A DNA stretch of 35,878 bases from Aquificota bacterium (lineage in GTDB: Bacteria; Thermosulfidibacterota; Thermosulfidibacteria; Thermosulfidibacterales; B14-G1): assembly GCA_015486015.1 (NCBI GenBank), contig WFSL01000032.1:1-35878 (forward strand), given 5' to 3'. Positions 232-27,988 of the stretch are shown in pieces. Each line of letters opens with the position of its first letter. Positions within the stretch are counted from its first letter, which is position 1. The notes under the pieces were generated by a model. It ran no database searches and was not told where the DNA came from. It worked only from the letters and a program-made list of their open reading frames with translations. Position numbers and translations under genes: made by a program.

Positions 232-1056
232 CTACTTCAGATACTTCCAGAAATCGGGCTTTCTCTTCTCCATGAAGGCCTTGCTCCCCTCCACAGATTC
301 TTCGGTCCCATAGTAGAGGCTGAGACCACCCACTCCCAGGTCTGTAATACCGGATAGGCCGTCTGTATCGGCCAAAAAGGCATATTTAAGCATCTTTAGA
401 GCGGTGGGACTCTTCTCCAGCAGCTCGTCACACCACTTCTGGACCTCTTGATCCAGCTCCTCATGGGGAACCACTCTGTTCACCAGACCCATCTGATAGG
501 CCTCCTGTGCAGTGTAAAGCTGACAGAGGTACCAGATCTCCTTGGCCCTCTTTAGGCCCACGTTCCTCCAAAGATCCCCTGTGCCGTACCCTGGATCAAA
601 ACTGCCCACCTTAGGCCCCGCCTGGCCCAGCTTGGCCTTATCTGATGCGATGGAGAGATCACAGTTCACCTGCCACACATGTCCCCCACCCACGGCGTAA
701 CCGTTGACCCTGGCTATAACCGGTTTGGGAATGTGCCTGATGAGAAAGGTGACCATCTGCCAGCCTGCCTCTAGAGGCAGTTGTGCGATAGTCCCCTGAA
801 GCTCCTCTGCGCTGTAGCCCTTGTAACCTCCCAGGTCTCTGATGCTCTGGTCTCCCCCTGTGCAGAAGGCCTTGTCTCCCGCACCTGTAAAGACCACCAC
901 CCCTACATCCCTGTCTGTCCAGGCGGCGATGAAGGTCTTGGTGAGCTCATAGAGGGTGACAGGGGTACACGCATTGTACTTCTCTGGACGGTTTATGATG
1001 ATCCAGGCGGTCCTACCCCTCTTTTCATAAATGACATCACTAAACTTCCCCTCCAT
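232..1056 (-). CDS. badI: BadI/MenB-family crotonase, probable 2-ketocyclohexanecarboxyl-CoA hydrolase
   Basis: A 274-aa crotonase-fold enzyme. BadI of Rhodopseudomonas palustris opens the ring of 2-ketocyclohexane-carboxyl-CoA to pimelyl-CoA; MenB makes 1,4-dihydroxy-2-naphthoyl-CoA. Both share the features seen here: AFCTGGDQ around residue 65, GPKVGSFDPGYGTG around 150, EIWYLCQLY and the C-terminal EKRKPDFWKYLK. The PGYGT variant (MenB has GGWG) and the C-terminus match BadI better as I remember it. AGGAGGTG precedes the ATG by 4 bases. It lies downstream of a 3-hydroxyacyl-CoA dehydrogenase under a TetR regulator, fitting alicyclic or aromatic acid breakdown rather than menaquinone synthesis, since no men genes are near. 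A MenB-like or other hydratase role remains possible. Confidence 0.75.
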   Translation of the reverse strand: MEGKFSDVIYEKRGRTAWIIINRPEKYNACTPVTLYELTKTFIAAWTDRDVGVVVFTGAGDKAFCTGGDQSIRDLGGYKGYSAEELQGTIAQLPLEAGWQMVTFLIRHIPKPVIARVNGYAVGGGHVWQVNCDLSIASDKAKLGQAGPKVGSFDPGYGTGDLWRNVGLKRAKEIWYLCQLYTAQEAYQMGLVNRVVPHEELDQEVQKWCDELLEKSPTALKMLKYAFLADTDGLSGITDLGVGGLSLYYGTEESVEGSKAFMEKRKPDFWKYLK

Positions 1057-13400: not shown

Positions 13401-14266
13401 CAACGTACATCGGCATCCACTTTTTTATGGGCTTTAATGTAGAGCTTACTAACCAAAAGGCTTGCCTCAAAGAGAACTATCAAAGGGAGAGCCATCATCA
13501 CTTGAGAAAGCACATCGGGAGGAGTCAAAACAGCGCCCAGCACAAAGCTCACTACCCAGATGGCCCTCCTGTAAGACGAAAAAGTCTCCAAAGAGACCAA
13601 ATCGGCAGCCACCAAGAAGAAGATAATGATAGGGATTTGAAAGACTATGCCAAAGGCTATCATAAGTTTAAAGACAAAGGAAAAGTACCTACCCGCTGTG
13701 AGCATGGGTTGGAACCAAGGGGCGGAGAACCGGAGAAGGAATTTAAAAGCCAAAGGCAGAATCCCGAAGTAGGCAAATGCCATCCCCCCACCAAAGAGAC
13801 CTATGGAGGTGAGAAAGAGAGTGAGGAATACCTTCTTTTCCCGGGGATAGAGTCCTGGAGCAATGAAGAGCCACATCTGAAAGGCGATAATGGGAAAAGC
13901 GCAGACCACACCTGTGGCCAGGGCCACTTTGATATTCACCACAAAGGCCTCGGTGGGAGCTATAAAGATAAGGTTACCCCCGTAAGGGTGGCGGAAAAAC
14001 TGGATGATCCTGGGTGCAAAGGGAAAAGCAACGGCAGCAAGGGGAACGATACTCACCACAGAGACGATGAGTCTCCGCCTCAACTCTTCTAAGTGCGTAA
14101 CGAATGCAGGGGCCTTGTCTGCCTCATCTGTGTATTCCTTTGTTATATCTTGTTTCAAGTTGTCAACTTCGTTCCTCAGAGTTCTGATAATCTGAATAGC
14201 CCGTTCAGGTCCAAGGATTAACACTGCGAGAAGAACTACTACCGTAATTTCACCAAATCCGATCAT
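13400..14266 (-). CDS. tatC: TatB-TatC fusion protein of the twin-arginine translocase
   Basis: A 288-aa inner-membrane protein. Residues 1-~35 are a TatA/B-type N-terminus (FGEITVVVLLAVLILGPERAI): one membrane helix with Glu at position 6, then LGPER, the TatB-like form, and the start of an amphipathic helix. After a charged linker (~35-53) comes full TatC: FVTHLEELRRRL at 56-67, six hydrophobic segments and FIAPGLYPREKK in the first cytoplasmic loop. HLxELRxRL and the loop Glu are signal-peptide contact sites in E. coli TatC. TatB and TatC form the receptor complex for folded Tat substrates, so a 1:1 fusion makes structural sense. AAAGGAC precedes the ATG. A separate tatA lies at 26072-26290. 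Confidence 0.88.
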   Translation of the reverse strand: MIGFGEITVVVLLAVLILGPERAIQIIRTLRNEVDNLKQDITKEYTDEADKAPAFVTHLEELRRRLIVSVVSIVPLAAVAFPFAPRIIQFFRHPYGGNLIFIAPTEAFVVNIKVALATGVVCAFPIIAFQMWLFIAPGLYPREKKVFLTLFLTSIGLFGGGMAFAYFGILPLAFKFLLRFSAPWFQPMLTAGRYFSFVFKLMIAFGIVFQIPIIIFFLVAADLVSLETFSSYRRAIWVVSFVLGAVLTPPDVLSQVMMALPLIVLFEASLLVSKLYIKAHKKVDADVR

Positions 14267-14382
14267 AAAACTGTCCTTTGATGCTTAGACAATACAGATC
14301 TTGCTACTTAAAAGAGGTATCCAAGGCTCCTCTAAAATCTCCCATGGTCATCCCTGCGGGTTGACAATGACCACGCCAAAAC

Positions 14383-14940
14383 TCATGTTTGTTCCTCTAT
14401 TTGTGTGTAAAGAAATTTTATAGTCTCCTTAGCAGACCAAGCTACAACTAAAGGGCACTTGTCTTTATGACCTCCGCTTTTCTCGAATAAGGCAAACTCA
14501 ACCTCATCCCAAAGATTGAAAGCCCTGCCCATCAAACTTTTTTGAATCTTCAAACACTGTGTATCCCCAAACCTATTCTCAAAAGCTTCAACAAAACCTT
14601 TTGAAATCCTGTAGCATTTTATTCCTCTATCCAGATTCTCCAAGCTTCTTATATCTCTCCCAAAAAATAAACCAATTAGCATTATACTCCCTATGAGGGC
14701 GCCGCACGTTGATTTATTGGTTAAACCTATTCCAGCTCCGAATCCTGATGCTGCTCTGAATGTTAAATCATCTCTGAGGTTGAGTGAATCTAAGACAGCA
14801 AGAACAGTGCTTTGAGAACATCCCCAATAGGTAGCTTCATATTTCAAACCCAATTCGAATGCTTTGGCTGCAATCTTGTCCAAAGAAACTTGAGTCAGCC
14901 TTTCTTTTAATCTATTGACGAGAATTTCCTTTTCCACCAC
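14383..14940 (-). CDS. C_GCAxxG_C_C family redox-type protein
   Basis: A 185-aa protein carrying the family pattern: C41 (YWGCSQST), C79 followed by GALIG (the CGAxxG core), C129 (GDTQCLKIQ) and C162 (DKCPLVV). Members are widespread in anaerobes and are thought to be redox or metal proteins with no fixed function. It starts 29 bases inside the end of the sigma-54 activator gene and is the last gene of the minus-strand catabolic operon, so it may serve the same pathway, for example in electron transfer. The sequence is AT-rich like its neighbours and unlike the tatBC gene that follows. Confidence 0.72.
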   Translation of the reverse strand: MVEKEILVNRLKERLTQVSLDKIAAKAFELGLKYEATYWGCSQSTVLAVLDSLNLRDDLTFRAASGFGAGIGLTNKSTCGALIGSIMLIGLFFGRDIRSLENLDRGIKCYRISKGFVEAFENRFGDTQCLKIQKSLMGRAFNLWDEVEFALFEKSGGHKDKCPLVVAWSAKETIKFLYTQIEEQT

Positions 14941-15982
14941 TCACATCCTCTAGATCTAGTTTCTTCAATTTTCCGTAGAATTGGCTCCTGCTCATCTTTA
15001 AGGACTTTATCAATTCAGTCTTAGTCTTGAATCTATTCAGCAGTGACTTAAATATGTTTTTCTCCACTTCTTGTCTTATTTCTGCCCAGCTCTTATCGGC
15101 TAAACTGTTTGTGATGACTTTATAAGCATTCTCTAAGTCTTCCTCTACTGCCCCAGTCTCTTTCTCTTCCTCCACATCCAAACCTTGCTCTGCGATATAA
15201 GCTGGAAGATCTTTGTGAGTTATTTCAGTATTTTCGCTCATTACTATCGCATATTCTATCACATTAAACAGTTCCCTAACGTTCCCAGGCCAGTCATATG
15301 CTCGCAGCAGGCTCAGCGTCTCCTTGGAGAAGTGTTTGTTAGTTCCCATTTTCTTACAATAGAAATGAAGGAAGTAATTTGATAAAATTTCTATATCATC
15401 ATTTCTCTCCCTAAGAGGAGGCAAATCAATTCTGACTACGTTCAATCTATAGTATAAGTCCTCTCTAAATCTTCCCTCTTTTATTAGTTCCCTTATATCT
15501 TTATTCGTTGCTGCTATTATCCTAACATCCACTTTTATAGCTTTTGTACCACCAATTTTTGTAAATTCCTTGTCCTGAATAGCTGTAAGTAACTTTGCCT
15601 GAGCAGGAAGAGAGAGATCTCCCACTTCATCTAAAAATATAGTTCCTTGATGAGCTTGCTGGAATAAACCTATCTTACCGCCCTTTTTCGCACCTGTAAA
15701 TGCCCCTTCCTCGTAACCAAAAAACTCAGTCTCGATTAATGTGTCTGGAATAGCTGCACAATTCACTTTTATGAAAGGCCTGTCTCTCCTTTTGCTTGCC
15801 ACGTGAATTGCACGAGCCATGAGCTCTTTTCCGGTGCCGTGTTCCCCAAATATTAGAACATTGCAATCTGTTCTGCTTGCCTTTCTGGCTTTAGATATTT
15901 CTCTATTTAATTTCTCACATTGCCCCACTATGATGCTAAAGGCTGTCTCCTCCATGTTTATGGTATCTCTACTCCTCTTCAT
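14912..15982 (-). CDS. sigma-54-dependent transcriptional activator without sensor domain
   Basis: A 356-aa bacterial enhancer-binding protein. Residues ~15-250 form the AAA+ domain: Walker A GEHGTGKE (46-53), the sigma-54-contacting loop GAFTGA (93-98), Walker B TIFLDE (114-119) and the R-finger region GRFREDLYYRLN. A C-terminal helix-turn-helix follows (KTELIKSLKMSRSQFYGKLKK, ~310-330). There is no receiver, PAS or GAF domain in front: the AAA+ domain starts almost at residue 1, so control must come from a partner, a ligand or its own level. The ATG overlaps the HMG-CoA-lyase-like stop (ATGA). It probably activates the divergent promoters at 21.05-21.47 kb, though I found no convincing -24/-12 sequence there. 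Confidence 0.88.
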   Translation of the reverse strand: MKRSRDTINMEETAFSIIVGQCEKLNREISKARKASRTDCNVLIFGEHGTGKELMARAIHVASKRRDRPFIKVNCAAIPDTLIETEFFGYEEGAFTGAKKGGKIGLFQQAHQGTIFLDEVGDLSLPAQAKLLTAIQDKEFTKIGGTKAIKVDVRIIAATNKDIRELIKEGRFREDLYYRLNVVRIDLPPLRERNDDIEILSNYFLHFYCKKMGTNKHFSKETLSLLRAYDWPGNVRELFNVIEYAIVMSENTEITHKDLPAYIAEQGLDVEEEKETGAVEEDLENAYKVITNSLADKSWAEIRQEVEKNIFKSLLNRFKTKTELIKSLKMSRSQFYGKLKKLDLEDVSGGKGNSRQ

Positions 15983-16812
15983 CTTAAGCTTCCCACATTC
16001 TCAACAATACCTTTAATCTCATTTATTATTTTTAGCGCTGGTTCAAATCTTAAGTTATCTAAGCCTATCATTTCAGCAAGTAGCTCTGTTGGTGGCAGAG
16101 TAACTATCCTTCCATCTATCTTCCTCAAACCAATACCTCCCAGTGATGTTGCGAACCTCTCTATACCTGAATCTAATGCCGAGTTGAGCAAGCTGACCAT
16201 CTCATTCCTCTCTTCGTATATGTGAATACCTATCTCTATACTTTTTGAATATGGACTTAAATTTTTGAAGAATGAGCTTATATCCTTGGGACGGAGCGGC
16301 TCTCCGAAGTTACTAAAATACAAGATATCAACACCTGCCTTTACTAACTGCTCTGCCACTATACAAGCTAATCTTCTATTTTCAGCCTCAAATGCCCTTA
16401 CAATGAATGCTTCTACTTCAAGTCCTTCTGACTTCGCTTCTGTTGCTACCACTATCATATCTTCTAACAGCGACTTTAAGTTTTTTCTGAAGAAAGTTAG
16501 GTTTATGCTGTCTTCTATTGAAATGAAGAATGAAACTCTGTCCACTTTGGAGTGTAATGCTCTTCTCAAACCTACTTCATTGGGAATGAAACCCACATAC
16601 TTCACATCCTGTTTTCTGCTAATTTTGTTGCAGACTTGCTCAGCGTCTTTTAGTTGTGTTATAACTTTAGGGTGAGCGAAGTAAGTTACATGGATCTCTT
16701 TGATGCCAGAATTAGATATGGCATTGATGAGATTTATCTTCATCTCTGTAGGAATAAACCTTTTAAATACTTGGATACCATCTCTTGGGCTTAACTCGCA
16801 AATCTTTATCAT
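15979..16812 (-). CDS. HMG-CoA-lyase-like DRE-TIM-barrel protein with altered active site
   Basis: 277 aa from ATG 16812, chosen because GGAGGAAA lies 6 bases upstream and the homologous region starts there (the frame is open 16 codons further). The fold is HMG-CoA lyase-like: ELSPRDGIQ (R10, D11), VGFIPNEVGLRRAL, AGVDILYFSNFGEP and a C-terminal SLGGIGLR-DGRI. HMG-CoA lyase splits 3-hydroxy-3-methylglutaryl-CoA into acetyl-CoA and acetoacetate. Three functional positions differ: the strand-2 Glu (EVTSF in the family) is His41, the metal-binding HxH is H197-I-Y199, and the catalytic Cys (GLGGCP) is Ile227. The reaction is therefore uncertain; a related C-C lyase/aldolase, or a non-catalytic role, is possible. 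It is co-operonic with the SDR (25-base gap). Confidence 0.72.
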   Translation of the reverse strand: MIKICELSPRDGIQVFKRFIPTEMKINLINAISNSGIKEIHVTYFAHPKVITQLKDAEQVCNKISRKQDVKYVGFIPNEVGLRRALHSKVDRVSFFISIEDSINLTFFRKNLKSLLEDMIVVATEAKSEGLEVEAFIVRAFEAENRRLACIVAEQLVKAGVDILYFSNFGEPLRPKDISSFFKNLSPYSKSIEIGIHIYEERNEMVSLLNSALDSGIERFATSLGGIGLRKIDGRIVTLPPTELLAEMIGLDNLRFEPALKIINEIKGIVENVGSLR

Positions 16813-16837
16813 TGGCTTTCCTCCAGAGACTAATGTA

Positions 16838-17608
16838 TTACCCTGCTGTCCAGCCGCCATCTATTATGAGGCAGTGACCTGTTATATAAGAAGCTCCATC
16901 CGAGGCTAAAAAAACGGCTGCCTTTGCAACCTCCTCTGGCTTTCCAAATCTCCCCATGGGTATTCTCGAAATCACTTGCTCCTTTAGTTCACTTTTCGAA
17001 GATAATCCCTTCGTCATATCAGTCTCTATAAATCCCGGGCAGATAGCGTTGACTCTTATATTGTAAGGTGCCCACTCAATAGAGATCGCCTTTGTGAAAG
17101 TGACGATAGCGCCTTTTGAAGCTGTGTATATGGCTACCCTGGGCAGTCCAATTACTCCTCCTATAGAAGATATGTTAATAATCGATGAACTGGAACACTT
17201 GCTAAGAAGAGGGAATGCGAGCTTACAGCAATTGAATGTTCCGAAGATATTTGTGTTTATTATTTCTTTCCAATCTTCAAGCGGGGCTTTATGGAAAGAA
17301 GTATAATGAGGGCTAATGCCGGCGCTATTGACGAGGATATTCAGATATCCAAATTCTCTCTCAATGAAATTAAAGACTTTAGATACATCGTTAATACTTG
17401 CTACATCGGCTGAAAGTGCTTTTGCCCAGCCACCGCTGGAAGAAATGGCCTCCTCTGTTTCTCTCAGCAGTGACAGGGTTCTGCTGACTAAAATCACGTG
17501 GGCTCCAGCTTTGGATAATTCTACAGATATCGCCCTTCCTATTCCCCTACTAGCACCAGTCACTAAAGCGATTTTCCCTTTCAAGATATCATTCTTAAAA
17601 ATGCTCAC
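16838..17608 (-). CDS. short-chain dehydrogenase/reductase (FabG-like)
   Basis: A complete 256-aa classical SDR. The NAD(P) site is TGASRGIGRAI (residues ~18-28), followed by LVNSAGI (the usual NNAG region), the catalytic Ser in INISSIGG, Y-x3-K as YTASK, and the C-terminal GHCLIIDGGW of the FabG/acetoacetyl-CoA reductase group. It starts with GTG 17608 behind GGAGGG at 6 bases. An R after TGAS and later RT suggest NADP preference, but this is weak. In this operon it probably oxidises or reduces a hydroxyacyl-/ketoacyl-CoA intermediate between the dehydratase-like and lyase-like steps; substrate unknown. Confidence 0.88.
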   Translation of the reverse strand: MSIFKNDILKGKIALVTGASRGIGRAISVELSKAGAHVILVSRTLSLLRETEEAISSSGGWAKALSADVASINDVSKVFNFIEREFGYLNILVNSAGISPHYTSFHKAPLEDWKEIINTNIFGTFNCCKLAFPLLSKCSSSSIINISSIGGVIGLPRVAIYTASKGAIVTFTKAISIEWAPYNIRVNAICPGFIETDMTKGLSSKSELKEQVISRIPMGRFGKPEEVAKAAVFLASDGASYITGHCLIIDGGWTAG

Positions 17609-17835
17609 TGTAAGCCCTCCAGTTAAAGCTTCTTAAATAATTTCTTTTCTACATCCATGACAAAATGGTTGATAATAATATCCATTATCCCCTTCTTTAT
17701 TAAGATAAAACTTTTCACCGCCCCTGCTCCTTGCTCATCTATCCCAACTGTACAGCAGTCTTGCTGAAAAAACATTCTTTTTTGCATTATACGCCATTAA
17801 GGGGACTTGGGGAAAGGCATTGCGAATGACCCGAA
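17609..17835. other. AT-rich gap with no intact gene upstream of the SDR
   Basis: Together with 17836-18208 this forms a 600-base stretch inside the operon. On the minus strand one frame reads I-P-M-V-L-D-V-I-R-V-I-R-N-A-F-P (about 17858-17811) and another stretch runs to 17637 with stops. These look like broken coding sequence, but I could not assign them. Confidence 0.35.
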
Positions 17836-18171
17836 TCACATCCAGAACCATGGGGATACCAGACCTTTCTCAAGATGTAGCTGGGCCTCCCAAGGCTTCT
17901 CCCACATTAAAGGATCCATCTGACTCGAAGGCATAGAAGATAACTCCATTTGTCCAAACAGGCGAACATCAGTAACGTTCACTTGGGAAACCAATTGATC
18001 TACGGAGAGCCCAGAGCAAGGAGGCCATTGGTTAGCCACCTCTTTGCCTTTCTCGTAGATGATAAAGAAAAGCTGGATAAGCTGATTTACAGAGAGGCAG
18101 GCCTCCTTTATTATTTCCCCTGTTTTTTCTGAATCTTTGCGTCTCTTAGGTCCATGCATTGGAAATAGCAT
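17836..18171 (-). CDS. unrecognised 111-aa ORF, possibly the 5' end of a frameshifted gene
   Basis: ATG 18171 has a good ribosome site (AAAAGGAGCACATC before the ATG) and lies 38 bases after the PaaK-like stop, so initiation is plausible. The first half (KTGEIIKEACLSVNQLIQL, then FGQMELSSM) looks protein-like; the last third (QMDPLMWEKPWEAQL) does not look like a natural domain end. Shifting to another frame near 17955 gives a coding-like run (T-N-G-V-I-F-Y-A-F-E-S-D-G-S-F-N-V-G-E-A) before a stop. A small gene broken by one or more frameshifts is therefore likely. I recognise no family. Confidence 0.35.
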   Translation of the reverse strand: MLFPMHGPKRRKDSEKTGEIIKEACLSVNQLIQLFFIIYEKGKEVANQWPPCSGLSVDQLVSQVNVTDVRLFGQMELSSMPSSQMDPLMWEKPWEAQLHLEKGLVSPWFWM

Positions 18172-18208
18172 GATGTGCTCCTTTTAATTCTCACTAAAAA
18201 CACAGCCA

Positions 18209-19537
18209 TTAGACCTTCTTCCTGTTATCAAGAATCCTTTTGGCCTTGAACTCTGTTCTTGGCAAAGTGCCGGGACCCACTATTTCAACTTCAGGGGTAA
18301 CTGCTAATTCTTCTCTCAATGCCTTTTTCATGGCCGAAATCAAGTTTTCAGATTCAAGGCTCATATCCAAGCATTCAACTACAACAGTGACTATATCTGC
18401 GCCGGTTCTTTCGTTTGTCTCGAGCTTTATGACGTACTCTGTGCTTAGCTCGGGAAAACCCCTAACCACTTTCTCAACCTGGGCTGGATAGAAGTTCTCT
18501 CCTTTGTAAATTATCATATCATCTGCTCTTCCTAATATACCCCCAGGTGATCTTGCATGGGTTCTACCGCAATCACACCTATCAGTTGCAAGCTTTGCTA
18601 AGTCATTCGTCCAGTATCTTATCAGAGGAGTAGCTTCCTTGGTTAGGTGAGTTAATACTAGTACTCCAGTTTCACCAGGTTGACATCTCTTTCTTGTTTC
18701 CTTATCCAGTATTTCAACAAGGACATGATCTTCCACCCAGTGTATACCGGCTTTCTCTCTGCATTCGGATGCAATAGTTGGACCGATTTCGGCAAGACCA
18801 TAATAATCATAAGCGTCAATCCCCAAGCCTTCTTCAATTTTCTTTCTGGTTGAGGGAATTTCTGTACCTGCTTCACCTCCAAGTATACCAAGTCTGAGTG
18901 AAAGGTCCTTTGTGGATACTCCTTTTTCCTTTAACTTCTCAGCTAAGTATAGAGCATAAGAGGGGGTGGCAAGAAATACGGTAGATTTTAGTTTTATGAA
19001 GTAATCTATTTGTCTTTCTGTTAAGGTAGCCCCAATGGGAATAGTGAAACAACCTATCCTACGTGCTGCATAATGGCAGGACAGACCCGCTACCCATAGC
19101 CCATAGCTAAATCCATTTTGTACAATGTCACCAGGTCTCACTCCTGACATCCACATGGTTCTTGCTGTCCAAGATGTTATATTCTCGATGTCATTTTCAG
19201 TCCATATTGTGTGCACTGGAACCCCCGTAGTTCCTGTTGATGGGTGAATTTCCCTCCACTGATCTTCAGGAGCAACCGCGTATCTCCCCAATGGTGGATA
19301 GTTAATCTGTTCTTGTCTAAGTTCATCTTTGGTTACTGGAGGGATCGCCTCAATATCGTCTAAACTTCTTATATCTTCCGGTGTAATTCCAGCCTTTTTA
19401 AACCTTTCTCTGTAAAATTCAGAGTTTTCATAGCATCTCTTAACCTGCCATTTTAGCCTTTTGAGTTGTAAATCCAATAATTGCTCTCTATCTAATGTCT
19501 CAATCTCAGCATCGAAGAATTTGGGATAATCAACCAT
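18209..19537 (-). CDS. phenylacetate-CoA ligase family (PaaK-type) acyl-CoA synthetase
   Basis: A 442-aa adenylate-forming enzyme, usual PaaK length. It activates a carboxylic acid, often aromatic, with ATP and CoA. Motifs: phosphate loop STGTTGVP (100-107, family SSGTTGKP), acyl-site strand DYYGLAEIGP (244-253), LIRYWTNDLA (305-314), a CDCGRT Cys pair typical of the family (321-326), and the C-terminal domain with LPRTEFKAKRI carrying the catalytic Lys (K431). GGAGGTG stands before ATG 19537. It follows the dehydratase-like gene by 30 bases, so its product is probably the CoA thioester feeding that enzyme. The real acid cannot be read from sequence. Confidence 0.88.
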   Translation of the reverse strand: MVDYPKFFDAEIETLDREQLLDLQLKRLKWQVKRCYENSEFYRERFKKAGITPEDIRSLDDIEAIPPVTKDELRQEQINYPPLGRYAVAPEDQWREIHPSTGTTGVPVHTIWTENDIENITSWTARTMWMSGVRPGDIVQNGFSYGLWVAGLSCHYAARRIGCFTIPIGATLTERQIDYFIKLKSTVFLATPSYALYLAEKLKEKGVSTKDLSLRLGILGGEAGTEIPSTRKKIEEGLGIDAYDYYGLAEIGPTIASECREKAGIHWVEDHVLVEILDKETRKRCQPGETGVLVLTHLTKEATPLIRYWTNDLAKLATDRCDCGRTHARSPGGILGRADDMIIYKGENFYPAQVEKVVRGFPELSTEYVIKLETNERTGADIVTVVVECLDMSLESENLISAMKKALREELAVTPEVEIVGPGTLPRTEFKAKRILDNRKKV

Positions 19538-19567
19538 ATCTACACCTCCATACTTAAAGTATAAGTT

Positions 19568-21040
19568 TCACTTAATATTAGGTTCAACTTTAAGATACTT
19601 TGTTTGATCTAAGTTTGGTTCCAATCCAGCAAGATATTTAGCTATTAATTTCCTATATTCATAGTCATACTCTGCGTTAAGTGTTATAGTTTCCATTATC
19701 GGTGACCCTCCCCCATGCACTCCCGCTATCTGGTACCATGCGGTCATACCTGATGCTACGATGTTCTCTACAAATCTCCAGATTCGATGAGATTCTTCGG
19801 GGGAAAATTTGGGGTTTCTCACTATATATTTGTCCATATACGGCTTTGTTGACTTTGAAATAAACTCTTCTTCAAATGGCAGGGTAACCGACAAACCACC
19901 AGCAACCTCTGTAAGAATGTTGTATTCGTGATAAATTGTTTCACCCATAATTCGCCTTCCCACATTTGCATATATAGGATTAGGGAAGAAAGTACCGGCA
20001 TCTGTTTTTTCTCCAAATATTGCGGCTGCTATACCTGCTGAAAATGATAGCTCCGCTGCTCCTACAAACTCTGAAAGCTTCTGCTTTATGTGTGATATTT
20101 TATCTATATTGTTTGCTTCAGCAACTAAGGCCGTTGCGCCGCAAAGAATGTCTGATACCGCTGGTTTACATCCGCAGTAGCTGTGGCGATGAGAATTTGC
20201 AAAAAGTAATGCTAAGCGGCGTCCGAATTCCCATTCACCGCACATGAAAACTCTTTCTTTTGGAATAAAGGTGTTGTCAAAAATAACTATTGAGTCAGAT
20301 ACTCCATATTCTGGAAGTGGGGCTTTAATAGCTTTTCTCTTTCTCATCCATACAGGTCTTGTGATTAAATGAATATCGTCCCAATCTGCTGGAATGGCAA
20401 AAGCAACAGCATAGTCTTTGTCCTCCTTTCTTAATGCTCTGGTGGGTAAAACGATAATTTCGTCTGCGTAAGCTACCATTGTAATACTTATCTTCGCACC
20501 TCTAACTACTATTCCATCTGATGCAGTTTCTACTATGTGAACATACGAATCTGGATCGTGTTGCTCTGAAGGCCTCTTTGTTCTATCTCCTTTCATGTCT
20601 GTTTGCGCGCATGCCGCACAGAGATCTTTCTCTTGATAGTACTTTATGAATTCTGTAAATCTTTTATGGTATTCAGTATTATACTTCTGATCTATTTCTT
20701 TCGTGCAGATTGAGAGTGCAGTTATAGCATCGTGCCCCATACATCTCTGTATGCAACCTCCGACTCTCTGGGTGCTTAGCCTAATCATCTTTTGTTTTTG
20801 AATCAAATCATAGGGAGAAAGGTGGAGATGGTTGAATCTGTTTATTTTTTTCCCGATGAGCGGTGACTCAGCTGTGATAACACCTTCCCATTCTGGATCC
20901 TGAGCAAGCTTATAAGTTTCACCGATCACGTTGATTCCCGGCCTGATGCGGGGATCGTCTCTTCCTACGCGTTCTCCACCAATATACAAGTTATTCTTCA
21001 TCTTCATCAAATCAGACACGTAATCTTCGAACGTCCTCAT
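19568..21040 (-). CDS. 4-hydroxybutyryl-CoA dehydratase-like Fe-S flavoenzyme (HpaB superfamily)
   Basis: A 490-aa member of the HpaB/AbfD family, the same length as Clostridium aminobutyricum 4-hydroxybutyryl-CoA dehydratase. That enzyme removes an unactivated beta-hydrogen by a ketyl-radical mechanism using FAD and a [4Fe-4S] cluster. All four cluster ligands are conserved: C96 and C100 (GGCIQRCMGHDA), H284 and C291 (HRHSYCGC, same 7-residue spacing as His292/Cys299). Tyr288, Lys292 and Thr187 align with Tyr296, Lys300 and Thr190; Glu257 is replaced by Asp249. The position of Glu455 is Ala439 (YQIAGVHGGGSP versus TESMHGAGSP). The substrate or reaction may therefore differ. GGAGGGGGAAGGAA precedes the ATG. 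First gene of the minus-strand operon. Confidence 0.85.
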   Translation of the reverse strand: MRTFEDYVSDLMKMKNNLYIGGERVGRDDPRIRPGINVIGETYKLAQDPEWEGVITAESPLIGKKINRFNHLHLSPYDLIQKQKMIRLSTQRVGGCIQRCMGHDAITALSICTKEIDQKYNTEYHKRFTEFIKYYQEKDLCAACAQTDMKGDRTKRPSEQHDPDSYVHIVETASDGIVVRGAKISITMVAYADEIIVLPTRALRKEDKDYAVAFAIPADWDDIHLITRPVWMRKRKAIKAPLPEYGVSDSIVIFDNTFIPKERVFMCGEWEFGRRLALLFANSHRHSYCGCKPAVSDILCGATALVAEANNIDKISHIKQKLSEFVGAAELSFSAGIAAAIFGEKTDAGTFFPNPIYANVGRRIMGETIYHEYNILTEVAGGLSVTLPFEEEFISKSTKPYMDKYIVRNPKFSPEESHRIWRFVENIVASGMTAWYQIAGVHGGGSPIMETITLNAEYDYEYRKLIAKYLAGLEPNLDQTKYLKVEPNIK

Positions 21041-21190
21041 TTCCTTCCCCCTCCAAGATTTTTCTATCCAAAGAAATTGACCCTCTCCATGCCAACGGTA
21101 TATGTGCTTGTAATCGAGGGGGTTAGCTGATTAAGTTGGATTAGAGAAGTTATCAAGAACTGGTGCGTCTCTGTATATATTCGGAAAAAC

Positions 21191-21207
21191 AAACATAGTG
21201 TATGTTT
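21191..21207. promoter_or_regulatory. palindrome AAACATA-N3-TATGTTT (candidate operator)
   Basis: A perfect 7+7 inverted repeat with centre GTG, about 150 bases upstream of the dehydratase-like gene start. A perfect repeat of this size between divergent operons is a typical regulator site; which protein binds is unknown. Confidence 0.4.
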
Positions 21208-21307
21208 TATAGGACATACCTAATTTACTCCTTTTGTCTTGATCCCGCCACCATTTGGATTTTCTTGTCTTAGGGCCTAATTTAAGCAAAACCAACTTCT
21301 GTCATTC

Positions 21308-21330
21308 GTAACATTTTGAAAAATTGTTAC
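21308..21330. promoter_or_regulatory. 23-bp imperfect palindrome (candidate activator or repressor site)
   Basis: GTAACA-TTTT-GAA-AAAT-TGTTAC pairs at 9 of 11 positions. It lies 135 bases upstream of the binding-protein start, a distance suitable for an enhancer bound by a sigma-54 activator such as the one encoded at 14912-15982. No direct evidence links them. Confidence 0.4.
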
Positions 21331-21465
21331 TTAACCATCAAACAAATTTTAATAACAACGATCGATATTTAATTCCTTAAAATTACGTGCATTACTTCGT
21401 TGGCATAGCAAAGTTTATATCTAAGATATAAAAGGATTTACTAAAATTATTTTAGGAGGTGTCAC

Positions 21466-22782
21466 ATGAGGGAAGCTATAGAAGCTCGGAGGGAATTTTT
21501 GAAAAAGTTAGGCATAGTGGGGGCTGGAGTCGTTGTGTGTGGTTCCTTGGGGTTGCCCAAAGCCCAGGCATCATCGAGGAAGAGGTTAAAGGACAAGATA
21601 AAAATCGGGCACATTGCTATTTTCTCGGGTCCCTTTGGAACTTATGGCGAGCTCCAGAAAAGGGGCTCAATGCTAGCTGCTGAGGAAATTAATAAAGTCG
21701 GAGGGATTCAAGGAAGTAAGGTTGAGATCATCTATAAAGATTCCAGGGCTAAGCCAGCTGAAGCTGTTAAACAAGTTAGAAGGTTAGTGGAATCAGAGGG
21801 AGCTGACTTTATTATCGGGATTGACTCCAGCGGTGTTGTGTTGGGAGTGGCCCAGGTAATGCCGGAGTTAAAAAAGCTCCTAATCGTCACTCATGCGGCC
21901 ACCCATAAGCTTACAGAGGAATTAGTCTACAAAAAAGGTAACAAATATGCATTTAGACTTTCCGTACCAACCTATCAGGATGGAACTATGGCAGCTATTA
22001 CCGCAGCTCAACTCCCAGCAAAGAGATGGGCATGCGTACATCCAGATTATGAATATGGATATGCTTCTTGGGAACTATTCAAAGCAACCTTAAAGAAGTT
22101 AAGACCTGACGTCCAATTTGTTGGTGAGTCCTGGGCTAAGATCGGAACCACAGATTTCAAACCTTTCATATCTTCAATACTTGACAAGAAACCTGATGGA
22201 ATTCATACAGTTGAGTGGGGGGTGGATCTCTTTACCTTTGTAAGGCAGGCAAAAGAGATGGGATTATTTGATGCCGTGAGATATAAAGATGGATACGCCT
22301 GGATAAATCCCATGGGTTATTCTATTGATGCAATGGAAGCACTTAAGAAGGAGTATCCTGAAGGTTGTTGGGTCTCAGGGAGATATCTCTGGCAGTATCC
22401 TCCTACAGAGCTTAATGAAAAATTTGTCAAAGCTCACTACAGAAGATGGGGACATTTACCTGCATATAGCGGTGCAACTTCATATACAGCGGTCTACTTA
22501 ATAAAGCATTTAATCGAATTGACCCAGACATTGGATGTAGAGACACACATAAAGACCCTCGAAAATCTGGCAATTTATTCACCTATTGGAGAAATGTTAA
22601 TTAGAAAGGAAGACCATCAAGCGATTTATGATGTACCCTTTGGACAGATAAAACATGATCCAAAATTCCCCATTCCAGTTTTAAAGAATTTCTTAGGTAT
22701 GCCCGCTTATATGTATTTTAGGAGACCACCGTTCACGGAGACACCTCCCTACACTGGCTATCCACCGTTCATGAGCCTGTAA
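21466..22782 (+). CDS. Tat-exported branched-chain-amino-acid-type ABC substrate-binding protein
   Basis: A 438-aa periplasmic binding protein (Peripla_BP_6/LivJ type). The N-terminus ARREFLKKLG with R8-R9 is a twin-arginine motif (RRxFLK), followed by the hydrophobic stretch GIVGAGVVVCGSLGLP and an AQA cleavage site at 33-35. It should thus leave the cell folded through the Tat system; most Liv-type binding proteins use Sec. The mature part shows IKIGHIAIFSGPFGTYG and AAEEINKVGGIQG, usual for the family. AGGAGG lies 7 bases before the ATG. It heads an operon with LivHMGF and TatA, divergent from CoA ligase and dehydratase genes, so the ligand is probably an organic acid; inference. Confidence 0.9.
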   Translation: MREAIEARREFLKKLGIVGAGVVVCGSLGLPKAQASSRKRLKDKIKIGHIAIFSGPFGTYGELQKRGSMLAAEEINKVGGIQGSKVEIIYKDSRAKPAEAVKQVRRLVESEGADFIIGIDSSGVVLGVAQVMPELKKLLIVTHAATHKLTEELVYKKGNKYAFRLSVPTYQDGTMAAITAAQLPAKRWACVHPDYEYGYASWELFKATLKKLRPDVQFVGESWAKIGTTDFKPFISSILDKKPDGIHTVEWGVDLFTFVRQAKEMGLFDAVRYKDGYAWINPMGYSIDAMEALKKEYPEGCWVSGRYLWQYPPTELNEKFVKAHYRRWGHLPAYSGATSYTAVYLIKHLIELTQTLDVETHIKTLENLAIYSPIGEMLIRKEDHQAIYDVPFGQIKHDPKFPIPVLKNFLGMPAYMYFRRPPFTETPPYTGYPPFMSL

Positions 22783-22796
22783 GCGTTAAATGCATT

Positions 22797-22822
22797 GGAA
22801 GGCAGTGTTCATGCTGCCTTCC
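22797..22822 (+). promoter_or_regulatory. intercistronic hairpin between binding-protein and permease genes
   Basis: GGAAGGCAG-TGTTCATG-CTGCCTTCC is a perfect 9-bp stem with an 8-base loop, 14 bases after the binding-protein stop and 35 before the permease start. No U-tract follows, so it is more likely an mRNA-stabilising or partial attenuation structure that raises binding-protein over permease level, as known from malE-malF-type operons. Confidence 0.6.
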
Positions 22823-22857
22823 TTGCCTGTTTATATCTGGTGTTGGGAGGTGTTGCT

Positions 22858-23709
22858 GTGGAGGCAATCTTCTTTCAGATATTGGTTGGTTTGTCGACCG
22901 CTATGCTTTACTGGGTAGTATCAGTGGGATTAACGTTCATTTTTGGTGTTACCAGAGTTTTAAACTTTGCCCATGGATCTTTTTATATGCTGGGTGCCTT
23001 TTTTGCCTTAGCATTATTCAAGTGGACGAATAGTTTTGTATTATCGATAGCATTAGGCTCGTTAGCCGTTGGGGTTGTCGGCTTATTGTGCGAGAGGGGA
23101 GTCATTAGGTTCACTTATTCTCTACCTGTAGCCTTTCAACTGGTATTGACTTTCGGCTTGGTCCTAATCTTTGAAGACTTGGTAAGGTTTATTTGGGGAT
23201 CCGTTCCCCAAATGATACGACCTCTGGGCTTAGGTGTAGTCACAATAGCAGGGAGGCGCTTTCCCATTTATTCTTTTGTAATCATGGGAACAGGGTTATT
23301 TCTATGGATCATCCTCTATTTCCTACTATTAGAAACAAAGCTTGGGTTAATGATTAGGGCAACGATATCAGACATTGAATTAGCCATGGCAAACGGCATA
23401 AATCCACATCTCCTTTATGCTTTCTCTTTCTTTTTCGGTTCTTTCTTAGCTGGATTAGGTGGAGCACTAACTTTGCCAATGTGTTCTGCTTCATTGGGTA
23501 TGGGAGAGAGAATCATAATTTATTCTTTTATAATAACGGTAATGGGTGGATTGGGGAACATTAAAGGCGCATTCATGTCCTCTTTAATAATAGGTATTTC
23601 AGAGTCGCTATGTGCTTTTTTCATGCCAAGCTTAACAATTGCCATTTCTTATGTAATACTTGCCCTTGTTTTGGTGGTTAAACCGGAGGGGATCTATGGA
23701 GAGGCTTAG
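22858..23709 (+). CDS. livH: branched-chain-amino-acid-type ABC transporter permease LivH
   Basis: A 283-aa inner-membrane permease with about eight hydrophobic segments. Family marks are GLTFIFGVTRVLNFAHGSFYMLGAFFA near residues 24-50 and VMGGLGNIKGAFMSSLIIGI near the C-terminus (the region that contacts the ATPase). I chose GTG 22858, which has GGGAGG 7 bases upstream and gives the usual family length. The frame stays open back to TTG 22795, but that extension lies over the intercistronic hairpin. With LivM it forms the transmembrane pore for the substrate delivered by the Tat-exported binding protein. Confidence 0.9.
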   Translation: MEAIFFQILVGLSTAMLYWVVSVGLTFIFGVTRVLNFAHGSFYMLGAFFALALFKWTNSFVLSIALGSLAVGVVGLLCERGVIRFTYSLPVAFQLVLTFGLVLIFEDLVRFIWGSVPQMIRPLGLGVVTIAGRRFPIYSFVIMGTGLFLWIILYFLLLETKLGLMIRATISDIELAMANGINPHLLYAFSFFFGSFLAGLGGALTLPMCSASLGMGERIIIYSFIITVMGGLGNIKGAFMSSLIIGISESLCAFFMPSLTIAISYVILALVLVVKPEGIYGEA

Positions 23710-24658
23710 TAATAAGTTCTTATTTTTCGTTCTAACGTCCATATTACTGCTAACTTTTGCTTTGCCACTTTTGAGTGGAGCCTACACTAATTACATAATT
23801 ATAAAGATATCTATTCTATCCCTTTATGCTGTAGCTTTTAATATTATGTTTGGCTATTGTGGTCTTCTAAGTTTTGGTCATGCAATCTTCTTCTCGGCCA
23901 GTGCCTATACTCTGGGTGTTTCCTTAACTAAATTAAACTTACCCATTTTTGTCGCTCTGCTGGCTGGCCTACTCACCTCGGTCATCTTTTCAATTATTGT
24001 AGGTTTTTTGTCACTTCGACACAAGGAAATTCATTTCGCAATGATAACCCTGGCACTTTCAATGCTGTTTTGGGGAGTTGTAATGAAGTGGAGATCTGTA
24101 ACAGGTGGCGAGGATGGTATAACGGGTATTTCAAGATCAATCTCAATGATAGCTTATTACTATATCTGTATAATTACTGTCCTTTCCTGTCTATTTATAA
24201 TTTATAAAATTATCTTTTCCGATTTTGGGCTGTTGTTAGAGGGAATTAGGGAAAACGAGATAAGGGTCGAATTTTCTGCTCACTCAGTGGTAAAACTTAG
24301 AATGTTGGCTATGATCATATCTGGACTATTTACTGGTATAGCAGGCATATTATGGGCCTTTTTAGATGGAGCTGTTACACCTACTATAGCCCATTGGTCA
24401 TTCTCGGCCGTACCTGTCATCGCAGCTCTTATCGGTGGACCCCAATCTTTTGTTGGCCCTATAATTGGAACTATAGTCTATGTTATTGCAGAGGACTTTA
24501 TTACCAGATTTACCCTCTATTGGCAGATTTGGCTGGGTATCGTTGTCGTACTTATAGTTTTATTTTTCAGAGGAGGGATAGTCGGTACAATTGCAAAGGT
24601 AGTATCCGAATTTTATCATTCTAAACTGAGGGAAAAATACCGTGAGAGGGAGAACTAA
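23696..24658 (+). CDS. livM: branched-chain-amino-acid-type ABC transporter permease LivM
   Basis: A 320-aa permease from ATG 23696, which has GGAGGGG about 5 bases upstream and overlaps the livH end by 14 bases. Motifs: LYAVAFNIMFGYCGLLSFGHAIFFSASAY near residues 45-75 (LivM signature NLxxGxxGxxSFGHAxFFGxGAY), EGIRENEIRVEF (the coupling helix region), and WSFSAVPVIAALIGGPQSFVGPIIGT toward the C-terminus. Multiple hydrophobic helices. Partner of LivH in the import pore. Confidence 0.9.
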   Translation: MERLSNKFLFFVLTSILLLTFALPLLSGAYTNYIIIKISILSLYAVAFNIMFGYCGLLSFGHAIFFSASAYTLGVSLTKLNLPIFVALLAGLLTSVIFSIIVGFLSLRHKEIHFAMITLALSMLFWGVVMKWRSVTGGEDGITGISRSISMIAYYYICIITVLSCLFIIYKIIFSDFGLLLEGIRENEIRVEFSAHSVVKLRMLAMIISGLFTGIAGILWAFLDGAVTPTIAHWSFSAVPVIAALIGGPQSFVGPIIGTIVYVIAEDFITRFTLYWQIWLGIVVVLIVLFFRGGIVGTIAKVVSEFYHSKLREKYREREN

Positions 24659-25365
24659 TGTTCTTTAGAGTAGAGAATCTAACGAAAAAGTTTGGAGAAT
24701 TTACAGCAGTCAATAACGTATCAGTAAGCTTTGAAAAGAACGTTATTACGGCAATAATAGGGCCTAATGGGGCTGGAAAAACTACATTTGTAAACTTATG
24801 TTCTGGGCTTCTAAAACCCACCAACGGTTATATATTCTTTAATGGAGAAGACATTACAAACTATAAAATCCATAAGAGAGCTAGTTTAGGTATCGCTAGA
24901 ACGTTCCAAATAGTGAACATATTTCAAGGTCTCTCGGTTTGGGAAAATGTAAAAATTCCACTCCTGTCGAGAAAGAATACGAGAGATATAGATAACACTA
25001 TAACCAAATTACTTACGTTCTTCAAATTGGAGAATATTAGATACACAACTTCAAGCGAGATCTCTCATGGGGATCAACGCCTTTTGGAGATGTGCATGGC
25101 CCTTGCTCTAAATCCCCAACTCTTGTTTCTGGATGAGCCTCTCGCAGGAATAAATCCACAAGACAGAGGGGTTATTATAGAAAGGATTGTCGAAATGAAA
25201 AGAAGCGGAATAACAGTAATCTTTATTGAACACGACATAGAATCCGTTCTAAAGATGGCAGATGAGATCATAGTAATGCACAAGGGTGAAATAGTGGCTA
25301 AAGGGCCATCAAGTAGCATTAAAGAGAATGATTTTGTCAAGGAGATATATTTAGGAGGTTGTTAA
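24658..25365 (+). CDS. livG: ABC transporter ATP-binding protein LivG
   Basis: A 235-aa ATPase. Walker A GPNGAGKT (35-42), the family insertion GIARTFQIVNIFQGLSVWENV, signature ISHGDQRLLEM (variant of LSYGEQR), Walker B LLFLDEPLAGI with the catalytic Glu, and IEHDIESVLKMADEIIVM (H-loop). The ATG shares one base with the livM stop (TAATG). It is shorter than E. coli LivG by ~20 residues, without loss of a motif. Powers the LivHM permease with LivF. Confidence 0.93.
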   Translation: MFFRVENLTKKFGEFTAVNNVSVSFEKNVITAIIGPNGAGKTTFVNLCSGLLKPTNGYIFFNGEDITNYKIHKRASLGIARTFQIVNIFQGLSVWENVKIPLLSRKNTRDIDNTITKLLTFFKLENIRYTTSSEISHGDQRLLEMCMALALNPQLLFLDEPLAGINPQDRGVIIERIVEMKRSGITVIFIEHDIESVLKMADEIIVMHKGEIVAKGPSSSIKENDFVKEIYLGGC

Positions 25366-25368
25366 TTA

Positions 25369-26055
25369 ATGACAATACTGGATGTCGATAATCTTAATTC
25401 ATATTATGGAAAGAGTCATGTTATTTATGACCTAAACATTAATATTGGTTCCGGCGAAATCGTCTCGATAGTAGGGAGGAACGGAGTTGGCAAAACCACA
25501 ATATTGAAAAGCATTATGTCCTTAGTTGAGAAGAGAAACTCGAAAATAACCTTCAAAGGTTTAGATATAACAAATTTCCCCCCTTACAAAATATCTAAAA
25601 TTGGAATTGGATTTGTGCCTGATAAAGGAGGTGTATTTCTCGATCTGACCGTTGAAGAAAATCTTAGACTTGCTTTCAGAAAAGGGGGTTATAATTATGA
25701 AGAAATTATAGAACTATTCCCTGAGATGAAGCCTTTACTTAAGAGGAAAGGTGGACACCTTAGTGGAGGTGAAAGGAGATTAGTGGGAATATCAAGAGCA
25801 CTGCTTATGAGCCAAGATGTTCTTCTTATAGACGAACCATCAGAAGGACTTGCTCCATCAATAGTTAAGGAGATTGCAAACGTATTATTAGAACTCAAAA
25901 AGAAGGGTATTTCTATACTCTTTGCCGATCAAAATGTTGAGTTTATACTGGAGATATCTGATAAGATCTACATAGTTGATAATGGACAGATTAAGGCCAA
26001 GGGTTGTAGAGGTGATATAACAAGAGAATTGCTTGAGAGACACATCTCTATTTAA
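25369..26055 (+). CDS. livF: ABC transporter ATP-binding protein LivF
   Basis: A 228-aa ATPase. Walker A GRNGVGKT (36-43), [21 protein letters not shown] (Q-loop region, where the usual Q is replaced in VPDKGG), signature [15 protein letters not shown], Walker [17 protein letters not shown]. The H-loop position reads FADQN, where many LivF proteins also have VEQN rather than His. AGGAGG precedes the ATG. Second ATPase of the importer; 16 bases separate it from tatA. Confidence 0.93.
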
Positions 26056-26071
26056 AGATAGGAGGTGCAAT

Positions 26072-26290
26072 ATGGGAAGTATTGGTTTCACAGAGCTACT
26101 GTTAATATTCTTGGTAGTTATGCTTTTGTTTGGCGCAAAGAAACTACCAGAATTAGCGAGAGGTTTAGGCCAAGCAATGAGGGAGTTCAGAAAAGCTGCC
26201 AAAGAAGTTGAAGATATCAGCAAATTAGAAGGTAACACTGAATCCGAAGAAGACCAAGCCTCTACTTCAAACAAGAATGATTCGAAATAA
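26072..26290 (+). CDS. tatA: Tat translocase pore subunit TatA
   Basis: 72 aa from ATG 26072, chosen for the AGGAGG 7 bases upstream and the canonical opening [10 protein letters not shown] single membrane helix with FTELL (Glu at 8), the hinge [16 protein letters not shown] and an amphipathic helix [14 protein letters not shown] are followed by a short acidic tail. FGxKKLPE marks it as TatA rather than TatB. TatA oligomers form the passage for folded proteins recruited by TatBC. It is the last gene of the importer operon, 16 bases after livF, next to a Tat-dependent binding protein gene; the TatB-TatC fusion is ~12 kb away at 13400-14266. Confidence 0.93.
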
Positions 26291-26341
26291 ACAAAGGCAA
26301 ACGTGGTAAGAGTGGATAATGTAATACCCTATGATTTCCGC

Positions 26342-26372
26342 ACAACCTACGCTGCTATATCTCGGCAGAAAG
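26342..26372 (+). repeat. second copy of the 9625-9653 intergenic motif
   Basis: ACAACCTACGCT, 10 bases, then GGCAGAAAG. Same two blocks and order as at 9625-9653, and same strand. It follows the tatA operon rather than immediately preceding a gene, so a ribosome-site explanation does not apply here. Confidence 0.4.
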
Positions 26373-26377
26373 CTTTT

Positions 26378-26448
26378 TATCCTGCTCCTCCCTCAAAAAG
26401 TGATCCTGAGGCAAGGCATGCTGGAGCAGAAAGGAGAGGAGCAGGATA
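26378..26448. repeat. inverted repeat with 13-bp perfect arms
   Basis: TATCCTGCTCCTC (26378-26390) and GAGGAGCAGGATA (26436-26448) are exact reverse complements separated by 45 bases. It may be a stem-loop at the 3' end of the tatA transcript or the ends of a tiny non-coding mobile element. There is no U-tract directly after it. Confidence 0.6.
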
Positions 26449-26611
26449 CCCCTTGACCTAAGGAGGGACCTTCAGCGTATAAATCAAAATATTGAAGGAT
26501 CTTAAGGGACCCTGAAATGGTTAGCAGTAGTGGTTTACTTTTTTCTTTCAGAGGAGAGAGGATTGGGGGGTTCTAAGGGATCTGAGAGGAGATGGAAGGA
26601 TTAGGTGCCTC

Positions 26612-27988
26612 ATGGTTAAGGGGGCCTTCATAAGGAGGCTGAGGAAACTGCTGGGGGAAGACGGTATCACCACTCGAGTGGAAGATCTTTTATGTTACTC
26701 CTTTGACGCCACTCAAGAGGAGTATCTCCCACAGGTAGTGACCTTTCCTCAGAACACCCAACAGGTCCAGGAGCTTATGAGGCTGGCTTGGGAGGAAGAG
26801 ATACCCATCATCCCTCGGGGAGCGGGTTCGGGTTTCACCGGGGGTTCTCTCCCTGTGAAAGGGGGCATGGTAGTTTCTACAGAGCGCCTGAATCGCATTC
26901 TTGAAATAGATGAGGAGAATCTCACGGTCTTGGTAGAGCCAGGGGTGGTGACGGCCAAGCTCCAGCAAGCGGCAGAGGCCTTGGGCCTCTTTTATCCCCC
27001 CGACCCTGCCAGCATGGAATTCTGCACCATAGGAGGAAATGTAGCTGAAAACGCAGGGGGTCCCAGAGCTGTGAAGTATGGGGTCACCCGGGATTATGTC
27101 CTGGGTATTGAGGCGGTGTTGCCAGGAGGAGGGATGATCATTACGGGGAGAAAGGTGATGAAAGATGTGGTGGGCTATGATCTTACTCGCTTACTGGTGG
27201 GGTCGGAGGGCACCTTGGCCTTTTTCACCAAGATTCTCTTGAAGCTCTTACCTCTGCCTCCCACCACGGGCACCCTTTTAGCCCTTTTTTCTTCCCGAGA
27301 GCAGGCAGGGGACGCTGTAGCCGCCATTATCAGGTCCCGGATCTTGCCTACAGCTATAGAGTTTATAGATCGGGGAGCCCTGGAGGCTGTCAGAAGATAC
27401 GCTGGGATAGACATAGATGCTCAGGCCCAGGGGGTGCTTCTCATCGAGGTAGACGGGGAGGAGGATGTGGTAATGCACCTCTTAGAGGGGGTGGCGAGGG
27501 TGTGTGAGCAGGTAGGAGGCATTACCCGTGTAGCCAAGGATCAGGCAGAAGCCCAAGAACTGTGGCGGGCACGGCGAGCCATCTCTCCTTCCCTGGTCCA
27601 CGTGGCCCCTACCAAGATAAACGAGGACATCGTGGTGCCTCGAAGCCTCCTTCCTCAGGCTTTGGCCCGCATTGAGGCCTTAGAGGGGAGATACGGCCTG
27701 CCTATTATCTGCTACGGCCATGCAGGGGATGGTAACATCCACGTGAATGTCATGACAGACAGGAGGGATCCCGAAAAGTGGAGCAAGGCCCAAGAGGCAG
27801 TGAGAGATATTTTTGCCATTACCGTAGAGCTGGGCGGTACCCTAAGCGGGGAGCATGGCGTAGGCATCACCAAGGTACCTTATCTCTCCATGGAGTTGTC
27901 CCCTCGGGTCATGCAGCTCTTCAAGGGAATCAAGGGTATCTTCGATCCTAAGAACCTCCTCAACCCCGGCAAAATGGGATTGGGTTAA
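26612..27988 (+). CDS. glcD: FAD-linked oxidase of the GlcD (glycolate/lactate dehydrogenase) family
   Basis: A 458-aa PCMH-type flavoprotein oxidising an alpha-hydroxy acid such as glycolate or lactate. FAD-binding motifs: IPIIPRGAGSGFTGGSLP (residues ~63-80), NLTVLVEPGVV, TIGGNVAENAGGPRAVKYG and LTRLLVGSEGTLAFFTKI. The C-terminal cap holds CYGHAGDGNIHVNVM and LGGTLSGEHGVGITK, both typical of GlcD. Full length. No GlcE or GlcF iron-sulfur partner follows, so the electron acceptor is unknown; D-lactate or another 2-hydroxy acid is equally possible. GC-richer than the preceding block. Confidence 0.88.
   Translation: MVKGAFIRRLRKLLGEDGITTRVEDLLCYSFDATQEEYLPQVVTFPQNTQQVQELMRLAWEEEIPIIPRGAGSGFTGGSLPVKGGMVVSTERLNRILEIDEENLTVLVEPGVVTAKLQQAAEALGLFYPPDPASMEFCTIGGNVAENAGGPRAVKYGVTRDYVLGIEAVLPGGGMIITGRKVMKDVVGYDLTRLLVGSEGTLAFFTKILLKLLPLPPTTGTLLALFSSREQAGDAVAAIIRSRILPTAIEFIDRGALEAVRRYAGIDIDAQAQGVLLIEVDGEEDVVMHLLEGVARVCEQVGGITRVAKDQAEAQELWRARRAISPSLVHVAPTKINEDIVVPRSLLPQALARIEALEGRYGLPIICYGHAGDGNIHVNVMTDRRDPEKWSKAQEAVRDIFAITVELGGTLSGEHGVGITKVPYLSMELSPRVMQLFKGIKGIFDPKNLLNPGKMGLG

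Follow-up and report, generated by a model that had tools for sequence, protein, structure and literature searches.

The window analysed here is a 35,878-nt stretch of a genome labelled Aquificota bacterium (GenBank assembly GCA_015486015.1, contig WFSL01000032.1). A cluster of same-strand genes in it is headed by an ORF for a predicted FAD/[4Fe-4S] acyl-CoA enzyme that resembles 4-hydroxybutyryl-CoA dehydratase (4HBCD) by homology and structural modelling and is of the Ala455 type, with alanine at the position of the catalytic Glu455. This ORF occupies 21040-19568 on the minus strand, for which an earlier note had given the correct coordinates, and comprises 490 codons, starting with an ATG at 21040 that is preceded by a strong GGAGG-type ribosome-binding site. 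Downstream on the same strand lie a PaaK-type, AMP-forming acyl-CoA ligase (18209-19537), the predicted maker of the CoA ester, a non-coding stretch (17640-18180), an SDR dehydrogenase similar to FabG and gluconate-5-dehydrogenase (16838-17608), an HMG-CoA-lyase-like (HMGL-like) protein (15979-16860), an AAA+ sigma-54 activator (14912-15982) and a putative redox-active protein of the C_GCAxxG_C_C type (14383-14940); the ends of the last four genes overlap. A Liv-type ABC importer is encoded divergently on the plus strand (21466-26055) and consists of a binding protein (21466-22782), two permeases (22795-23709 and 23660-24658) and two ATPases (24658-25365 and 25369-26055). A crotonase homologue is present elsewhere in the window (232-1056).

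The longest ORF of the non-coding stretch had no Pfam match, and 45 bp of the stretch match the locus of the intact hemB gene of this genome at 82%; we tentatively regard it as a decayed hemB (ALAD) remnant. The HMGL-like protein is probably not a true HMG-CoA lyase, judging from an alignment in which Tyr occupies the position of the second His of the metal motif and the region of the C-terminal catalytic Cys has no match. Since no such gene was found beside the Ala455-type enzyme in other loci, we left it out of account in defining the pathway. Gene context suggests regulation by the sigma-54 activator; a scan for the sigma-54 promoter consensus returned 8 sites vs 5.8 expected, which is no better than chance. 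The GC content of the block from 13.5 to 27 kb (13501-27000) is 38-44%, compared to mostly 49-55% in the rest of the window. This block coincides with the catabolic cluster and the transporter and may have been acquired horizontally.

Homology, fold and active-site residues

A phmmer search against PDB sequences identified AbfD, the 4HBCD of Clostridium aminobutyricum (1u8v), as one of the two best solved relatives of the window protein (E = 1.7e-109, residues 2-473). The two proteins are 41% identical, and the window protein is a full-length AbfD homologue, far above chance. It passes the Pfam gathering scores of PF11794 and PF03241 (292.6 and 177 bits) and misses the cut-off for HpaB monooxygenases (TIGR02309, HpaB-1) by a wide distance (146.5 bits vs 480.2 needed). 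An AlphaFold2 model built from 40 window and locus sequences had a mean pLDDT of 94.6 and a pTM of 0.92. In a structure search its top PDB matches were 6vjr (from N. maritimus) and 1u8v, with TM-scores of 0.91-0.93, followed by HpaB-type monooxygenases; the AbfD fold was thus recovered, with a TM-score of 0.93 and an rmsd of 2.0 to 1u8v. HpaB (4-hydroxyphenylacetate 3-monooxygenase) and two-component phenol monooxygenases have PF11794, PF03241 and the overall fold in common with the window protein, but HpaB lacks the cluster ligands. The acyl-CoA dehydrogenases MCAD and SCAD are more distant in fold (TM-scores of 0.41-0.49 to the model) and have no Fe-S cluster.

In phmmer and MAFFT alignments, C96, C100, H284 and C291 of the window protein fall on the [4Fe-4S] ligands C99, C103, H292 and C299 of AbfD, whereas A439 falls on E455. 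The earlier note had described a 4HBCD relative that keeps the Fe-S ligands and has Ala in place of Glu455; this description is confirmed, and all of its residue numbers (C96, C100, T187, D249, H284, Y288, C291, K292 and A439) are exact. The codons of C96-IQR-C100, two predicted ligands, lie at 20741-20755 (all codon positions here are on the minus strand), and those of the segment H284-RHS-Y288-CG-C291-K292, with the other two predicted ligands, the redox tyrosine (Tyr296 of AbfD) and Lys300, at 20165-20191. A further residue of this segment, H286, is a His found specifically in the Ala group; AbfD has Gln294 there. T187 (20480-20482) corresponds to T190 and D249 (20294-20296) to E257, a position with Asp or Glu among relatives. 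E372 (19925-19927), aligned with Ile380, is likewise specific to the Ala group and is a candidate replacement acid/base. Around A439 (19724-19726), the loop reads IAGVHGGGSP instead of TESMHGAGSP and contains no Glu; both solved enzymes, 1u8v and 6vjr, carry Glu at this position. In the model, E372 is located on a long helix (355-380) and A439 on another helix (431-442). Taken together, the window protein shares with AbfD the fold, the length, all four ligands, Q101, T190, Y296, K300, H458 and an acyl-CoA context, but differs from it by E455 to Ala, E257 to Asp, Q294H, I380E, V361P and A460G.

The Ala455 group across the family

To place these differences, residues at the AbfD positions were read in a wider set of 173 family sequences. 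Of the members that have all four ligands, 145 could be read at position 455, where the residue was Ala in 83, Glu in 35, Gly in 22, Asp in four and Val in one, and three further four-ligand members were too short to be read there. The set was collected with an Ala455 query, so that the proportions of Ala and Glu should not be read as a census, and several loci are near-duplicates, so that sequence counts do not equal independent events. The C, C, H and C ligands, Tyr296 and Lys300 are invariant in all 83 Ala-type proteins. Position 257 is Asp in 59 of them, Glu in 22 and His in two; the exchange of Glu257 for Asp is conservative and varies among relatives, whereas the E455A change is categorical. 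Four other positions vary together with 455: His at 294 (82/83, vs Gln in 30/35 of the Glu set), Pro at 361 (83/83, vs Val in 25/35), Glu at 380 (76/83, vs Ile in 33/35) and Gly at 460 (83/83, vs Ala in 35/35). His294 and Glu380 are also present in much of the Gly455 set and in all four Asp455 members. By these substitutions (Q294H, I380E, V361P and A460G), the site of the Ala group has, as read from sequence, been redesigned in a coordinated way and is not the AbfD site minus one residue. Close homologues (about 42-70% identity) were found in Dehalococcoidia, Desulfobacterota, Desulfurella and several archaeal groups, all of them with Ala at 455 except for one with Val. In view of the clade-wide conservation, a single-gene mutation or pseudogene was discarded as an explanation.

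The window protein lies outside the E455 group in the family tree, in a separate clade. In a quick tree of 95 rows, the Ala types fell together to one side of a branch (SH-aLRT 89), and the E455 proteins lay elsewhere. In a more careful tree of 42 rows, a bacterial Ala/Gly/Asp group including the window protein, never with Glu455, was supported at 100/100, and an archaeal type with the motif ASCHG grouped with the E455 side (92/78). The E455 group itself is weakly supported (82 SH-aLRT in the larger tree, 59/70 in the smaller). In the outgroup without an Fe-S cluster, position 455 is Ala or Trp, so that under the assumed root Ala may be ancestral and Glu455 derived.

We also compared this group with Sulfolobales homologues. 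The sequence L127, which we take to represent the Sulfolobales 'type 2' 4HBCD homologue group, has Ala at 455 as well, but its residues at the ligand positions are I/A/H/Y, without the Cys ligands, whereas the window protein keeps all four. Some other members of the family have departed further from AbfD. Eight loci from Syntrophales and other Deltaproteobacteria (L050-L054, L056, L058 and L059) have Cys at three ligand positions together with Val292, Lys296, Thr300 and Ser455, which suggests a different cluster site or none. The four Asp455 members (L144, L176 and two more) have His257 and all cluster ligands and appear to represent another redesigned active site. Two more diverged family members, neither of them a canonical E455 enzyme, are encoded on contigs C22 and C7 of the window's own genome (L002/L003): one has all ligands together with Gly455, Thr257 and Cys296, and in the other, Tyr replaces the ligand His292, and neither Tyr296 nor Lys300 is retained.

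Gene context and probable function

Gene neighbourhoods of the enzyme were examined in other genomes, where many loci are short contigs and the evidence is consequently uneven. In a genome of the same order, the enzyme (a fragment with 75% identity) is again located next to a Liv importer in divergent orientation. The Ala type opens an operon in six genomes of the Smithella-containing class Syntrophia, the class of G067 (L184-L188 and L195). The other genes of this operon code for a canonical E455 enzyme, with 53-55% identity to AbfD where this was measured, an SDR, a type I or type III CoA-transferase and an MFS transporter, and a sigma-54 activator lies divergently from it. A thiolase lies within the operon in five of the six and apart from it in L188. 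An Ala type of another subclade (L027 and L028) has an E455 enzyme in its vicinity, along with a CN_hydrolase and a Liv transporter, and in L027 also an Fe-ADH. A short-chain fatty acid transporter and a CoA-transferase are among the proteins encoded around the enzyme gene in Desulfurella acetivorans. About half of the loci of close relatives have an SDR gene nearby, although the SDR of the window and that of the Syntrophia operons are different orthologues. NCBIfam searches with the SDR, ligase and thiolase did not narrow down the substrate. Redox proteins of the C_GCAxxG_C_C family (PF09719) were found in eight Ala-type loci (the window, L008, L015, L027, L029, L031, L034 and L037), in L031 directly downstream of the enzyme; such a protein is a possible partner in electron transfer or cluster maintenance.

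In total, a canonical E455 enzyme was detected near the Ala type in eight loci, including the six Syntrophia operons; this sharing of operons in relatives is a further difference from AbfD. Because the two co-occur, they are probably not redundant, and a related acyl-CoA is indicated as the substrate of the Ala type. The window genome has no canonical E455 enzyme, and therefore this argument comes from relatives only. Retention of the cluster, the tyrosine and the lysine points to the same kind of chemistry. The enzyme probably serves the anaerobic breakdown of acids with a reaction that is related to, yet distinct from, that of 4HBCD. On balance, we favour the reading that the window enzyme is an uncharacterised FAD/[4Fe-4S] acyl-CoA dehydratase or isomerase acting on a substrate other than 4-hydroxybutyryl-CoA, and that the Ala455 subfamily is not 4HBCD itself; FAD and cluster occupancy, radical chemistry and the reaction class are what we infer for it. 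A short hydroxy or unsaturated acid would be imported and catabolised anaerobically, passing from the importer to the CoA ligase or CoA-transferase, the Ala455 enzyme, the SDR dehydrogenase and finally C-C cleavage. Since the activation and transport neighbours vary between genomes, several substrates are possible.

Within the predicted site, the substrate would be bound as in AbfD, between flavin and cluster; Tyr288 would mediate electron transfer, and Asp249 and Thr187 would relay protons to FAD. In the mechanism said to have been put forward by Zhang et al. in 2015, E455 is reportedly the base that deprotonates Y296 at the radical start, E257 protonates FAD via T190, and an E455Q variant is said to have had no measurable hydratase activity. 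The earlier note had argued for a different substrate or reaction with the radical machinery intact. The first part is supported by the invariant ligands, Tyr296 and Lys300, the clade-wide Ala and the operon pairing with an E455 enzyme, but the second was overstated, because E455, by its reported role, belongs to that machinery. Its loss would cripple radical initiation on the same grounds, and the chemistry could thus be non-radical. In the Ala455 type, the role of this base would be dispensed with or taken by another residue, for which H286 and E372 are candidates. A bolder version, which we hold only tentatively, is that of a widespread flavin/[4Fe-4S] radical subfamily that starts its radical without Glu455 by means of an H286/E372 acid/base pair and catalyses a second, undescribed difficult elimination paired with 4HBCD in one operon, the Glu455 form being derived.

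Four rival explanations were considered. The first in rank, though unlikely, is an ordinary 4-hydroxybutyryl-CoA dehydratase with a relocated base, in which E372, together with H286, replaces E455. It would account for the Glu380 and His294 that accompany Ala455 where the E455 group has Ile and Gln, and there is a parallel in the acyl-CoA dehydrogenases, whose catalytic Glu occupies differing positions among members; an engineered mutant with a relocated base (1egd, T255E/E376G) was even among the weaker matches of the structure search. However, such an enzyme would be redundant in the eight loci that have a canonical E455 enzyme nearby. AbfD has both dehydratase and isomerase activities, and a pure acyl-CoA delta-isomerase (3-enoyl to 2-enoyl) that has lost the dehydratase activity ranks next, also with a low probability: this second activity of AbfD would fit a site that has lost E455 and kept the rest, but, as known for the family, the canonical enzyme of the same operon would be expected to isomerise already. 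Slightly less probable again is a crotonyl-CoA (enoyl-CoA) hydratase acting at C3. The CoA-transferase, 4HBCD, SDR and thiolase of the Syntrophia operons leave exactly one step without an enzyme, crotonyl-CoA to 3-hydroxybutyryl-CoA, and no crotonase homologue was detected in these operon stretches. Nevertheless, an Fe-S/flavin enzyme is not required for this hydration, and one of the widespread crotonases may be encoded at another place in those genomes; the window, too, has one. The conserved Tyr296 and cluster suggest harder chemistry. A decayed or non-catalytic copy, for which the decayed remnant of another gene in the same cluster might speak, is very improbable given the intact ORF, the retention of all ligands, the same residue in many phyla and the 60-70% identity across phyla.

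Relation to known 4HBCDs

4HBCD (EC 4.2.1.120 / 5.3.3.3) is an oxygen-sensitive enzyme that removes water from 4-hydroxybutyryl-CoA. In two archaeal cycles of CO2 fixation it is regarded as the key enzyme (PMC12794621), and its gene is one of those that are scored in calling such pathways from metagenomes (PMC9802188). In a Metallosphaera paper, both Msed_1220 and Msed_1321 are given as candidates for 4HBCD, of which Msed_1321 is assigned to the step, and a paper on benzene activation cites AbfD as a chemical precedent only. We found no account of an Ala455 subfamily in the literature searched, and this large branch is apparently unstudied. Among the four-ligand homologues sampled with the Ala455 query, the Ala455 type is commoner than the Glu455 type and can be 40-45% identical to AbfD; therefore, identity-based annotation can mistake it for 4HBCD. 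Positions 455, 294 and 380 together provide a simple sequence test that separates the two. Moreover, as a natural intact site without the proposed base, the Ala455 group makes the proposed mechanism of the radical start testable.

Two additional observations were made in these genomes. In Desulfurella acetivorans, the Ala455-type gene (L021, near 6176) appears to be frameshifted near residue 61, with its N-terminal part in another frame. In the class of G067, paralogues of the family are greatly expanded, with members in 121 of 155 genomes and 13 matches in a single genome (G070).
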